DNA of 43,135 nucleotides. Origin: Alloprevotella sp. OH1205_COT-284 (GTDB lineage Bacteria > Bacteroidota > Bacteroidia > Bacteroidales > Bacteroidaceae). The DNA is taken from contig NZ_RQYI01000021.1 of the NCBI RefSeq assembly GCF_003859795.1, forward strand, positions 1 through 43,135, in the 5' to 3' direction. Shown here piece by piece: positions 20,871 through 24,425 of this stretch (its first letter is position 1; each line of letters begins with the position of its first letter). The position numbers and the translations under genes are program-made. The notes under the pieces were generated by a model. That model worked only from the letters and a program-made list of their open reading frames with translations, was not told the DNA's origin and searched no databases.

Positions 20871-21123
20871 GGCCTCAGCGAACTCCTCCACACACACAAT
20901 AAAACAAACAATCAACATAACAATCAAGCCCCAAATACGTCATTAACGACAAGAAGACGCAAAGAAACAAGATAAACCGACGCCTTGGAGAGCGGCTGCA
21001 ACGCCACGTGATCGACGCACAAGAAAAAGCCATCGTGCAGACTTTTCAGACAACATCAAAAGCCTAAGTCACCAAAAGCGACGACCAAGTAGGAACCGGT
21101 GAAATTTAGGTCAATGACAGATT
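20871..21123. other. Gene-free spacer after the second ABC-F gene
   Basis: I see no credible gene, hairpin terminator or RNA here. One frame (20929-21066) is open for 46 codons and ends in TAA, with a basic, helix-like composition, but it has no start codon and no recognisable relative. It may be a gene remnant. Confidence 0.4.
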
Positions 21124-21626
21124 ATTCTACTCGTTGCTTGGGAATTTCTACTCGTTGCTTAGGATTTTCTACTCGTTACCCCGTTTATTCTACCCCTTTG
21201 GTAAGCTGCGTTCCGACGCATGAAAGTATATCCGGAAAAACCAAAGAGGAGCAGAAACAATTCTTTGTGAAAAAAGCAACTTTCAGCCCCCCTTACAGGG
21301 AGTTTATCTTCTTTTTGTCTACATTGTCTACACTTCCTCTTTTAAGTCACAGATATATAGATTATTGCGAATGTAGACAAAGCGGAAAATTACCTACATT
21401 CGTCGCAACAACCTACACGCGACATCGGGAAGGCTTGCCAAGGCTCGACAGCGGCAGTGTAGGCAGTGTAGGTTTTCGGAAAAACTACCTACATTCATAT
21501 CTTATCTGTGTATCATTGACTTAACTCCTTTCTGTGTATGATCGTAAACCGCCATATACACTCGCATATTACTGAAATTCAGCGGTGTGCAGGGCACAGT
21601 GTATGTTTTTCGACGATTTTACGAAA
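21124..21626 (-). repeat. Non-coding element, copy B (inverted partner of 9856-10342)
   Basis: Read on the minus strand, this roughly 503-base stretch aligns along its length with 9856-10342. Three AACGAGTAGAA boxes (two in copy A) lie at its left end. They are followed by CCCCTTACAGGGAG, TTTTTGTCTACATTGTCTACA, a series of CCTACA/TGTAGG half-sites in both directions, GACTTAACTCCTTTCTGTG, TGTATGATCGTAAA and TTTCGACGATTTTACGAAA at its right end. The right end abuts an ISL3 transposase remnant. Short frames inside it are not conserved with copy A and I treat it as non-coding. Confidence 0.85.
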
Positions 21627-21758
21627 CATTTCGAGGGTAGATTGACCAATGCCTCTGCCGAATCATTCAATACAAAGATTAAAACATTCGGAACGCAGTT
21701 CGGAGGAGTGAGAGATATTAAGTTTTTCATGTATAGACCGGCGAAACTCTATTCTTGA
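21609..21758 (+). pseudogene. ISL3-type transposase, C-terminal remnant
   Basis: Forty-nine codons ending in TGA encode a tail with RLTNASAESFNTKIKTF and GVRDIKFFMYRPAKLYS. This matches the end of ISL3-family DDE transposases, including the final catalytic glutamate region (NASAESFN). Everything upstream is missing; the frame runs back into the outer end of element B. After the stop, GATTATCCGCTGACCC at 21783-21798 looks like the right terminal repeat of the insertion sequence. It is a decayed IS that ended next to, or inside, element B. Confidence 0.8.
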
Positions 21759-21850
21759 TGACAAAAGGGGCTTGCCCACCGAGATTATCCGCTGACCCGA
21801 AAGACTGCTGAATAATGATGGAGTGCTATGAGACTTTGTAATCATAAAAA

Positions 21851-22076
21851 ATTATTGGTGTCCAGTAAAGTTTAGGAGGTTAGAGATTTTGAGCTGAAAT
21901 CCTTCATTTTTCGTAAAAACAACCTTCTGAAAGGGCATTACGAACAGAAAAGCAGCTTGACCATGTTAGAAATGATAGTATGGAAAAATACAAGCCCCTA
22001 TTTCGTTTTTCATAGAAAGTTACTTTATAACAGCGAGTTTTGAGGTTGATTCAGTTTTTTACCGGACAGCAATAAT
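21851..22076. mobile_element. 226-base MITE-like element
   Basis: The ends form an imperfect inverted repeat of about 19 bases: ATTATTGGTGTCCAGTAAA at 21851-21869 and, read on the minus strand from 22076, ATTATTGCTGTCCGGTAAA (two mismatches). Short A-runs flank both sides and could be a target duplication. There is no ORF inside. The TGTCC-type tips suggest mobilisation in trans by an IS transposase not present in the window. Confidence 0.6.
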
Positions 22077-22079
22077 AAA

Positions 22080-22125
22080 AAATCTGCAAGTTTCGCACCT
22101 CGAAGATACTAAAACTTGCAGATTT
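22080..22125 (-). terminator. Perfect 14-pair stem downstream of the GTPase operon
   Basis: AAATCTGCAAGTTT (22080-22093) pairs exactly with AAACTTGCAGATTT (22112-22125) around an 18-base loop. It lies 67 bases beyond the last gene of the minus-strand operon and is followed on that strand by TTTATTATTG, so it is a plausible terminator, though AT-rich. A small inverted-repeat insertion is the alternative. Confidence 0.55.
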
Positions 22126-22192
22126 GACAAAGGATTTAGGAATTTATATCACTGAATATCAAATATTAAATAACCATTTAAGGAACGACTAA

Positions 22193-22930
22193 TTAATCAA
22201 AATGCACTTCAAATATAGTATGGAGTTCTCTTTTTATGGATGTTGTCTTATGAAACGAATTGTCAAGATGTACTAATCCTTTGAGTGCATTAAGATTGCA
22301 TGCAACATCAAGAACATTGTTTAGTTCCGATGATATGCAGGTAGATTGTTTAAAAGTCTTATTACGAGCTTTTTTTTGCGGATTTCTTGCGTTTAGCAAA
22401 GTAGAAATAACCATATCATTCTCTAACCCACATTGTTTAGCTCTCATAAGTGCTGTTTCATATCCTTCTTTATCAACTCCTATTGCTTCATTAGTCCATT
22501 CACTTGAAAACTTGTTGCTTTTTGCTTCTGATTCACTCGACTTGATTTTTATTTGCAAATCACCCTTTGGAATAACTGCATTAAATTCCTCGTCAATATC
22601 ACGCTGCTTAAGCCCAATTAGTAGTGTTTCCCACTTAATGTAAGTCGCCCCAAGATCAGTTAAAATGTTTACGATTTCTCGTATTTTTGCTTGCAGAACA
22701 GTATCTTCATATTCTTGCAAAAGGACATACCGGTCATCAAAAGGACATTTTAAATAGGTTTGTCCATATTCACACAATTCAGAAGAGAGAGATGCAGGCA
22801 GAAGGTCTTTATCAAATTCGGGATCGATAATCATTAGAGAAGATGGAATCATTTCCGAATTTTTCTCCCATTTCCAAGAACCAGCTATTTTTTGTGGTTC
22901 GATTCTGATCACATTTGGTTGGGTATTCAT
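22193..22930 (-). CDS. Uncharacterised 245-residue protein, last gene of GTPase operon
   Basis: I do not recognise a named family. The protein is hydrophilic, with no signal peptide or membrane segment. A middle part (about 100-150) is charged and includes PKGDLQIKIKSSESEAKSN. The C-terminal 60 residues contain the regular pattern SSELNNVLDVACNLNALKGLVHLDNSFHK followed by a strand-like end (LHTIFEVHFD), as in a small alpha/beta domain. It begins 14 bases after the membrane-protein gene and is AT-rich like the rest of the operon. By position it is a cytosolic partner or effector of the GTPase; that is inference. Confidence 0.75.
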   Translation of the reverse strand: MNTQPNVIRIEPQKIAGSWKWEKNSEMIPSSLMIIDPEFDKDLLPASLSSELCEYGQTYLKCPFDDRYVLLQEYEDTVLQAKIREIVNILTDLGATYIKWETLLIGLKQRDIDEEFNAVIPKGDLQIKIKSSESEAKSNKFSSEWTNEAIGVDKEGYETALMRAKQCGLENDMVISTLLNARNPQKKARNKTFKQSTCISSELNNVLDVACNLNALKGLVHLDNSFHKTTSIKRELHTIFEVHFD

Positions 22931-22944
22931 AATGAGATGATTTG

Positions 22945-23475
22945 CTATTTTGTATTAGGTGAATCAAATGATATTGAATCTATAGTTTCAATAGTCGCTT
23001 CTCGAGTTTTATTTGTTGCGCTTGCCACACATGTGTAAACGAGATAGCCTATTGCTCCTCCTATTATTATTGTCATAAGAAGAGTTATTAGAAGATTCAT
23101 TTTTTTTTTCTCAGATACGCTTATATCATCAGAAACAATCTCAAAATTATGTTTTGAACTGATTGACATCAACTCATCTTTGGCTTGTTGTAAACTCATC
23201 ATATTATTGATGTAAGCCATAAAAGGAATTCTTCTTCCATTTTCATCTAGGTTACTGTATCTACCTTTTATGATGTATGACTTTTGTCCACCTTTCCCTT
23301 GTATGAATATTTCACATTTTGAACCATTCTGAATTTTTCTATCTGAATCTGTTGCGCATAAAACAGAATATAGTCTTTGAAATCTTTCGTCAGAATGAGA
23401 AATAAGAGTCCCATTAAGAAAGAGCTTAGTGTCAGCATTTATGCTGTCTTGTACCCATAAAATATTATTAATCAT
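22945..23475 (-). CDS. Uncharacterised single-pass membrane protein of GTPase operon
   Basis: The 176-residue protein has a soluble N-terminal domain of about 120 residues with features such as GTLISHSDERFQRLYSVL and KGRYSNLDENGRRIPFMAY. A lysine cluster (SEKKKM) follows, then one transmembrane helix at about 126-150 and a short polar tail. No signal peptide is present, so the N-terminal domain should be cytosolic. The start codon overlaps the stop of the GTPase gene as ATGA, so the two are made together and probably interact at the inner membrane. No family name can be given with confidence. Confidence 0.8.
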   Translation of the reverse strand: MINNILWVQDSINADTKLFLNGTLISHSDERFQRLYSVLCATDSDRKIQNGSKCEIFIQGKGGQKSYIIKGRYSNLDENGRRIPFMAYINNMMSLQQAKDELMSISSKHNFEIVSDDISVSEKKKMNLLITLLMTIIIGGAIGYLVYTCVASATNKTREATIETIDSISFDSPNTK

Positions 23476-24095
23476 ATATTCATCTTATTTTTGAGGTTTT
23501 CTAAATCTGATTTATTTGTGGCATTTATTACCATTATATTTGCCTTGGATAATAGATCCGTTAGTTTGTGAGTTTGCTTCAACTCATTAGTTATTTCTTT
23601 GGCCTTGTTTTTATAATCTGAAACCTTGTCAGCATATGAAATTACAAGATAAAAATTATCATTGTCCAATTGACTTCTGAATTTGTTTTCTATAAAACCA
23701 AGTCTTGCAATGACATCTCGTTTGTATGAATCATTATTTAGATAATCATAAATACTGAAAAAAAACATCACAGCTTTTGGGGTACTCGTACAAATTGCTT
23801 GTTCGTAATATAGTTTTATATTTTCTTCTTGCCCACCATAGTCATATCCACTCTTGATCTTTATGGAGTCACCATTCTTTTTTTTAAAAGTGAATGGGGG
23901 AAAGGACTCTCTATCAAACGTTCCCGCATTTTTATATTCTACATTCCGCAAAAAACAAAGCCATAAAGTTTTACCAGAAGCAAGAGGTCCTAATACAATC
24001 AGTTCTTTTGCGTCTTTTGACAGCTTATGCCATGCTCCAATAATAGTTACTAATACAGCAAATAGGAGGTAAATTGGATAACCAAATGGTAACAT
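23472..24095 (-). CDS. Membrane-anchored Ras-like small GTPase
   Basis: The 207-residue protein starts with a hydrophobic anchor (residues about 5-22) and then a P-loop GTPase core: Walker A GPLASGKT at 36-43, switch-II motif DYGGQE at 85-90, a strand FFFSIYD, a weak G4 motif SYADKV at 153-158 (in place of NKxD) and a G5-like NATN at 191-194. Arf, SRP-receptor beta and other TRAFAC GTPases share the DxxGQ form. It lies between a 72-residue small-protein gene and a membrane-protein gene that it overlaps by four bases. The weak G4 motif leaves guanine specificity open. A role as a switch in a conflict or stress response is plausible but inferred. Confidence 0.82.
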   Translation of the reverse strand: MLPFGYPIYLLFAVLVTIIGAWHKLSKDAKELIVLGPLASGKTLWLCFLRNVEYKNAGTFDRESFPPFTFKKKNGDSIKIKSGYDYGGQEENIKLYYEQAICTSTPKAVMFFFSIYDYLNNDSYKRDVIARLGFIENKFRSQLDNDNFYLVISYADKVSDYKNKAKEITNELKQTHKLTDLLSKANIMVINATNKSDLENLKNKMNI

Positions 24096-24125
24096 AAATA
24101 TTTTGTTCTTAAATTTTAGTATTGA

Positions 24126-24344
24126 TTACATGAGTTCCACATTCAGCTCAATATTATTTAAACATCCTGCCTTTTTGATGTCGATACCGTAGATACGGTA
24201 GAAAGCATCAATAACGCATTGACCTCCATTGGTGGAAACAGGGTTACTCATAGTCTTAGTAATTACCTCTACTGACATGCCTGGCTCTATTCGTATGCCA
24301 TTGCAGTTCTTGATACGCTTTGCTGTAATTCTAAATCTTGCCAT
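24126..24344 (-). CDS. Small conserved 72-residue protein (resembles DUF6140)
   Basis: The protein begins MARFRITAKRIKNCNGIRIEPGMSVEV and includes NPVSTNGGQCVIDAFYRIYGIDIKKAG. From memory this resembles the DUF6140 small proteins of Bacteroidetes; this could not be checked here. It is predicted to be a compact, mostly beta domain with no signal or membrane segment. It is the first gene of the minus-strand operon, 30 bases upstream of the GTPase gene. Function is unknown. Confidence 0.75.
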   Translation of the reverse strand: MARFRITAKRIKNCNGIRIEPGMSVEVITKTMSNPVSTNGGQCVIDAFYRIYGIDIKKAGCLNNIELNVELM

Positions 24345-24425
24345 GGTTACATTGCATTACATGGTTAGTAGATAATAACAACCTCATATTCATCGTGCCT
24401 ATAAATCGTTTAGGACAACATTGGC

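Follow-up and report, generated by a model that had tools for sequence, protein, structure and literature searches.

Several bacterial gene sets built around a membrane-linked GTPase have been described. In the DO-GTPase/GAP1 systems, as set out in excerpts of PMC7159879, a membrane-associated TRAFAC GTPase is encoded with uncharacterised partner and transmembrane (TM) proteins and, on rare occasions, with a DNA-glycosylase domain; a glutamate in Walker B is conserved in the DO-GTPases. A dynamin, DynA, delays phage lysis in Bacillus, according to an excerpt of PMC8844932. The MglA and Rup GTPases, in the excerpted parts of PMC4316618, have other partners than the proteins called B and C here. 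We analysed a contig of 43,135 nucleotides (nt) from Alloprevotella sp. OH1205_COT-284 (NZ_RQYI01000021.1; the window, meaning this whole stretch), which is C14 among the 93 contigs of a 2.3 Mb draft genome. Four minus-strand genes within it encode a small DUF6140 protein, a membrane-anchored GTPase (G), a single-pass membrane protein (B) and a soluble protein (C). Our main finding is that G, B and C form a rare, co-inherited accessory unit and that DUF6140 is a companion which this unit shares with other gene sets.

G, B and C are inherited as a unit

B was found at 13 loci, was accompanied by both G and C at every one, and was never seen without them. The order is G-B-C at 12 of these loci; the exception, L071, reads C-G-B, with C in two overlapping frames and a contig end 29 nt after B. 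With L071 left out, the protein distances between the remaining 12 loci correlate at 0.80 for G and B, 0.89 for G and C and 0.82 for B and C, and none of 5000 permutations reached any of these values (p 2e-4). These correlations argue that the triad is inherited as a unit. Equivalent distances for DUF6140, available for 10 loci, show no correlation with the triad's (r = 0.005, -0.13 and -0.06 for G, B and C, respectively), from which it follows that DUF6140 does not travel with the triad. The near-zero correlations, a triad without DUF6140 in genome G037, and the presence of other cassettes at most DUF6140 loci together define a three-gene module plus a promiscuous companion. The initial annotation had treated all four genes as one system and had proposed examining their co-occurrence across Bacteroidales: the linkage of G, B and C stands, and we reject the inclusion of DUF6140.

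The first relative came from G037, where G, B and C follow in order at 29, 31 and 23% identity; C, a weak match by BLASTP alone (E 0.021), was later secured by profile. A gene resembling uracil-DNA glycosylase (UDG; PF03167, E 0.0014, below cut-off) precedes G in this genome. A search of the order with a two-row profile (A1) added G523 and G490, both with G-B-C, and nine further triads were present among 78 DUF6140 loci. Recurrence of the G-B-C order in other genera is more than chance would provide. One of the triads (L019, on contig C17 of G490) lies inside a long same-strand gene run, whose members include a CxxCxGxG protein, HExxH-type proteins (by eye, with no Pfam family), a PP2C phosphatase and small proteins that belong to no family.

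The module is rare and accessory. With the window protein G (P0002) as query, 3 of 201 family genomes match, one of them the source genome and one a chance match. A1 matches 8 of 393 order genomes: the source genome, G523 and G490 hold triads, two (G235 and G210) have good GTPase matches with neither B nor C seen, one of them cut by a contig end, and three are weak. A12, a profile built from 13 G members, matches at E <= 1e-10 in 1 of 385 phylum genomes, the source genome itself, when the best seven first-look candidates per genome are scored. A search for B found 3 of 300 order genomes: the source genome, G490 and one chance match. Beyond the phylum, G was covered by a close-relative scan of genome contigs, in which 0 of 34 stretches were confirmed for P0002.

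A number of hits were discarded. As relatives of G, those in G188 (part of a 750-residue frame of a different kind) and in G417 and G497 (567-residue frames) were judged to be chance; G216 was too weak to be kept as a GTPase, and L049_17096 is a protein of 437 amino acids (aa) with two G1 motifs and NKxD. A weak match to B in G233, within a 671-residue frame, was likewise attributed to chance. By title, nearly all the loci come from Bacteroidales; the few exceptions are L071 (a triad) and L103, labelled as Lachnospiraceae metagenome-assembled genomes (MAGs), and L070, labelled as a Methanobrevibacter MAG, all three of which we take to be mis-binned contigs.

DUF6140 accompanies several membrane cassettes

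DUF6140 is the only protein of the window unit that matches a family (Pfam PF19637, E 1.9e-31, 108.3 bits against a gathering cut-off of 27), as the initial annotation had supposed. No credible solved relative was found (one match at E 1), and a full-text literature search returned no paper on the family. From 186 relatives the best 80 were kept and 78 loci analysed. The next same-strand frame starts no more than 60 nt after DUF6140 in 57 of 77 loci, and a preceding frame ends within the same distance before it in 22 of 70. Among the 78 loci, G-B-C occurs in nine, dynamin-like GTPases in 19 and a C match of at least 310 aa in 23 (the short piece in L071 included); 48 have at least one of C, a longer C protein and a dynamin, and 30 have none of them.

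The source genome contains two more DUF6140 3' ends, each at a contig end. On C27 (L021, 8276-9868) the DUF6140 end is followed by a 530-aa C-domain fusion protein that, by eye, has pairs of cysteines, a part rich in glycine and a hydrophobic stretch at the C-terminus; on C7 (L022, 125-6216) the genes that come next encode three dynamin-like GTPases, of which one has ankyrin repeats. The breaks of the two contigs fall at identical bases within DUF6140, a sign that the copies may be nearly the same.

Searching 393 order genomes for C gave nine places in seven genomes, the match in G216 being weak (9.6e-9) but retained. DUF6140 is part of the gene run of C at five of the nine: the window, C27, G523, G524 and G490:C56. 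At G490:C17 and in G487 the contig ends just upstream; in G474 and G216 DUF6140 is absent beside C, and it is absent genome-wide from G474, G487 and G216. Overall, DUF6140 occurs in 4 of the 7 C-positive genomes versus 8 of 247 order genomes generally, with the source genome in both counts. As to the triads, DUF6140 is absent from the G037 genome, and the contig in G490 starts just upstream of the triad. We conclude that DUF6140 is a shared companion of several membrane cassettes and not a member of the triad.

It is conceivable that DUF6140 itself is what matters, perhaps as a small regulator that binds nucleic acid or RNA and serves a mobile cassette, with G, B and C as interchangeable cargo. 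Its distances, uncorrelated with those of the triad, and the many gene sets that it adjoins would suit such a role. However, the G037 triad exists without it, and no viral copy was found (0 of 43 candidate stretches in viral contigs were confirmed; integrases and att sites were not searched for), and we consider this explanation quite improbable.

The GTPase and its partners

The anchored P-loop GTPase of the initial annotation is borne out: both motifs are present and the N-terminus of G is a hydrophobic anchor. Alone, the window protein matches no Pfam family. Searched against PDB proteins, A12 matches ARL3 (1.7e-9), the Roc domain of LRRK2 (1.8e-8; positions 34-204 of 215, nearly full-length) and SR-beta (5.2e-7; positions 9-134, starting in the anchor region). 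When members are scanned singly at E <= 0.1, Arf is matched by 7 of 13 (best 1e-8), Roc by 7 (6e-8), SRPRB by 6 (9.4e-4) and DO-GTPase2 by 3 (9.5e-5). Each of the 13 triad G proteins retains both the P-loop and [DE]x[GS]G; the guanine motif T/S-H/Y-x-D, presumably of Roc type, is found in nine, one (L017) has THLN, and in three the pattern picked up no such motif. The profile over the G domain places G with the Arf/SR-beta/Roc type, and the small-GTPase kinship that the initial annotation had expressed as 'Ras-like' is better stated as 'Arf/Roc-like'.

Two relatives of G stand without a B partner: at L016 (7076-7729) neither B nor C was found, and at L018 (5872-6714) the contig ends 93 bases past the gene. 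Both enter the G profile and are excluded from the triad count.

A simple scan gives B a single hydrophobic TM-like stretch, and its gene overlaps that of G by ATGA, both as initially annotated; the TM-like stretch is C-terminal, and the N-terminal domain carries the motif NNILWxQD ... DxxGRxIxF. C has two beta-type amphipathic stretches (in the window protein, roughly residues 112-135 and 182-230); that they insert in membranes is a guess. The C domain was matched in 38 frames, one just a short piece, and elsewhere it is part of larger proteins with zinc-ribbon-like, glycine-rich and repeat-like regions (by eye). At E <= 0.1, no credible Pfam family was found for B (13 members scanned) or C (20 members), and profile searches with either gave no convincing natural solved structure; matches to designed proteins, and weak matches of C, were taken as chance. 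For G, B and C alike, hidden Markov model searches of Pfam, PHROGs and NCBIfam returned nothing credible. The gene set thus stays as unfamiliar as it had first appeared: apart from DUF6140, these collections and PADLOC give sub-threshold matches at most.

An Arf/SR-beta-like G domain with an N-terminal anchor would also be expected of signalling in the style of MglA/MglB or SR-beta/SR-alpha, whose GTPases usually have membrane partners. The G-B pair would then localise a surface or secretion machine, with C as the cytosolic output and no role in conflict. We think this unlikely, given that the Pfam scans of B and C members at E <= 0.1 gave no roadblock, longin, OmpA or response-regulator family and that no common machine was seen beside the triads listed.

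A structured leader RNA at other DUF6140 loci

A conserved noncoding element of about 250-340 nt that ends in a terminator-like stem lies upstream of many DUF6140 genes (for example L059 1795-2137, L079 9659-9989 and L093 9651-9992); where DUF6140 is the last gene, the element precedes the operon (L067, L076, L078, L082 and L086). It starts at a Bacteroides-type promoter (TAnnTTTGC). A profile iterated on the same set of 90 upstream stretches matches 37 of them at E <= 1e-3. In 24 sequences, 76.6% of the cells in two long-range helices (named from L059) are paired, versus 39-49% when slid, and 13 of 18 pairs show change on both sides; none of 500 shuffles was as high in paired cells or in covariation score, although relatedness among the rows can inflate these values. 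The element is pseudoknot-like. Model R1 is in effect a sequence profile, because RNAalifold on the 5' half found only three pairs. No Rfam family matched at gathering score, ten sources giving two unrelated matches; at E <= 5 the L079 leader gave none and that of L100 three, far below gathering scores. Near positions 1800 and 1925 of L059, a pre-promoter word (GAGCGTCATGTCC type) is the reverse complement of a transcribed word (GGACATGACGCTC type), and by eye such words seem to co-vary in several loci.

Profile matches to the leader were found in 11 of 14 genomes, at 1-6 copies each, and 6 of 9 DUF6140 genomes have one copy no more than 1 kb upstream of DUF6140. The element is not specific to DUF6140: the 11 matching genomes hold many copies beside other genes, several of which, judged by eye at the 16 loci listed, look secreted or lipoprotein-like. 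No profile match was obtained in the window or its genome.

The locus and its surroundings

The four open reading frames span less than 2.2 kb (22193-24344), with gaps of 30, -4 and 14 nt in the order DUF6140/G/B/C (Table 1), and the stability of the hairpin that follows C was equalled by none of 200 shuffles. Tight spacing and a terminator support the single transcription unit of the initial annotation. Its AT-richness is likewise plain, with a GC content of 0.30-0.36 versus about 0.5 in the genes flanking both sides (a GH20 hexosaminidase, a TPR protein, GlnRS and an ABC-F protein); intergenic DNA on the low-coordinate side is GC-poor as well (0.32-0.43).

Table 1. Features of the unit and its immediate surroundings in the window.
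Feature	Position	Strand	Remarks
DUF6140 gene	24126-24344	-	72 aa; first gene of unit; Pfam PF19637
G, membrane-anchored Arf/Roc-like P-loop GTPase (by motif and profile)	23472-24095	-	207 aa; GPLASGKT, DYGGQE
B, single-pass membrane protein	22945-23475	-	176 aa; overlaps G by ATGA
C, soluble protein	22193-22930	-	245 aa
Intrinsic terminator hairpin after C	22080-22125	-	21 pairs, then U-run; z -5.55
ISL3-family transposase, C-terminal remnant	21585-21758	+	PF01610, E 1.3e-5, above its cut-off
Candidate tail remnant of leader element	24382-24417	-	resemblance by eye only; no profile match

The initial annotation had also placed debris of insertion sequences (IS) and of miniature inverted-repeat transposable elements (MITEs) beside the unit. 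The former is represented by the ISL3 remnant; of the latter nothing was found in a repeat scan of 20900-22260, which showed, besides the stem of the terminator, a single weak inverted pair (18 nt, 78%) and some direct repeats of short length. A 21-nt word stands in two tandem copies (90% alike) at 21125-21166, with related words adjoining. Near the right end of the window, 42858-42904 matches the Rfam repeat CRISPR-DR49.

In a search for an empty site, GH20 was matched in all 41 genus genomes, and in 31 (the source genome included) the match was long, at E < 1e-199. Ten GH20 regions were compared: the TPR gene stands beside GH20 in three and the window's ABC-F orthologue is present in none, so that no clean empty site emerged. 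Genes after GH20 vary among the six regions listed, and in the L161 region an ABC-F protein 30% identical to that of the window lies 2.3 kb away. The adjoining IS remnant, together with a missing match to the leader known upstream in other loci, might be taken to mean that the unit is decaying accessory DNA without present function; with all four frames intact and both spacing and terminator retained, we give this very little credence.

A possible membrane-acting conflict or stress system

The best reading of these data is a membrane-acting conflict or envelope-stress system. In its particular form we propose, tentatively, an accessory membrane GTPase switch of three co-inherited proteins, in which C acts on the membrane upon phage or envelope insult. 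Gene set, order, co-inheritance, rarity, Arf/Roc relation, hydrophobic anchors and terminator are as observed above; each functional step that follows is one we infer. An N-terminal helix would hold G in the inner membrane, and G would cycle between nucleotide states. B, anchored via its C-terminal helix, would probably read or control the state of G through its cytosolic domain, and soluble C might be released or recruited by the G-B pair and then act on the membrane, perhaps by inserting amphipathic beta segments. The trigger may be phage infection or another envelope insult, and the membrane would as a result be either stabilised or so damaged that infection aborts. DUF6140 could serve as a small adaptor or regulator common to several such cassettes. 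Gene order, the G/B overlap and tight co-inheritance speak for a physical G-B-C complex.

A role in conflict is favoured by the patchy occurrence of the module, by its AT-richness and by hits of genes next to DUF6140 to models of defence proteins. The delay of phage lysis by DynA and the two beta-amphipathic stretches of C also speak for the proposed switch. Ten chosen neighbours were scanned with PADLOC and five gave a match, dynamins to LeoA/LeoBC (best 3.4e-13), an AAA ATPase to IetA (1.2e-28) and another protein to PDC-S26 (6.4e-31). Because the proteins were chosen and no background set was scanned, this evidence is suggestive only. At L037 the IetA-like ATPase and a WYL regulator stand beside DUF6140; at L038 the neighbour is the PDC-S26-like protein, at L039 a protein similar to it by eye, and at L041 an HNH-like protein, also by eye.

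Several results weigh against a conflict system. None of the four window proteins matches a PADLOC model at E <= 1, and the unit is not a known PADLOC anti-phage system. The other five of the ten chosen neighbours, the C-domain protein of C27 among them, match none either. No catalytic effector is recognisable. G has no match in plasmids or phages (tblastn) or in viral contigs (scan), so mobility finds no support. Outside the window, searches that did not start from DUF6140 yielded three triads, and DUF6140 adjoins one (G523). Finally, the guanine motif fits its pattern in only 9 of 13 G proteins, which leaves the specificity of G for GTP unproven. The defence role first proposed for the locus therefore has some backing from the neighbours, none from the window proteins, and stays conjectural. 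Among the matches listed for literature on Arf-like GTPase defence and on dynamins, WYL and Bacteroidales, the gene set is absent from titles and abstracts.

An envelope- or membrane-stress module, in which the GTPase pair senses tension or damage, C repairs or remodels the membrane as the dynamin sets and larger C-domain proteins would, and phage defence is at most a by-product, explains the data nearly as well as conflict does, doubtful as it may be when taken alone. Frequent DUF6140 neighbours seem to be membrane-linked, namely dynamin-like GTPases (Pfam Dynamin_N), proteins with TM-like stretches and, by eye, glycine-rich C-domain proteins; the leader family also precedes secreted-looking and lipoprotein-looking genes. 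Yet the occurrence of the module is very patchy, unlike that of core stress systems, and some DUF6140 neighbours match defence models.

The proposed switch may also belong to something wider. It is possible, if rather speculative, that the Bacteroidales harbour an undescribed plug-in network for immunity or membrane stress, in which DUF6140, often behind the structured leader RNA, would join one or another of several exchangeable membrane cassettes: the G-B-C triad, C-domain proteins of larger size, AAA sets or dynamin sets. The C domain would then be a new effector that acts on membranes, and an Arf/Roc-like GTPase together with its partner in the membrane would gate it. If these proposals are true, bacteria have, apart from the MglA and DO-GTPase families, a GTPase of Arf/SR-beta/Roc-like type that works with a membrane partner to control a protein downstream, and DUF6140, a Pfam family of no known function, is central to several membrane-linked accessory operons.

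Comparison with known systems

The DO-GTPase/GAP1 systems are alike in layout: the membrane GTPase, unfamiliar partner and TM protein given in the excerpts quoted at the outset are present in the window unit as well, and the DNA glycosylase there recalls the weakly UDG-like gene before G in G037. The proteins themselves differ. Pfam, which includes GAP1 models, gave no GAP1, GASH or FNIII family for B (13 members) or C (20) at E <= 0.1, and the window unit is without a second GTPase. Nor does G class as a DO-GTPase, since the DO-GTPase2 matches noted above (3 of 13) are weak and rank behind Arf and Roc; by GTPase and partners alike, the window unit falls outside the DO-GTPase/GAP1 systems. With Arf, SR-beta and Roc proteins G shares GxxxxGK[ST] and a DxGG-type motif; it differs in its place in a bacterial operon with B and C and, as we list it, in the T/S-H/Y-x-D guanine motif of nine of its members.

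Like MglA and Rup, so far as the excerpts of PMC4316618 describe them, G is a single-domain bacterial Ras-superfamily GTPase within a conserved gene set. In contrast to MglA, whose partner MglB is a roadblock protein, neither B nor C members have a roadblock match at E <= 0.1, and the unit is not an MglA/MglB pair; the neighbours of Rup group 1 given in those excerpts were not recognised in B or C. The bacterial dynamins (LeoA/LeoBC, DynA) have a Dynamin_N G domain, are much larger and lack B or C, but they share with the window unit both the DUF6140 companion and the membrane theme, and dynamin-like genes are present in the same genome, on contig C7.

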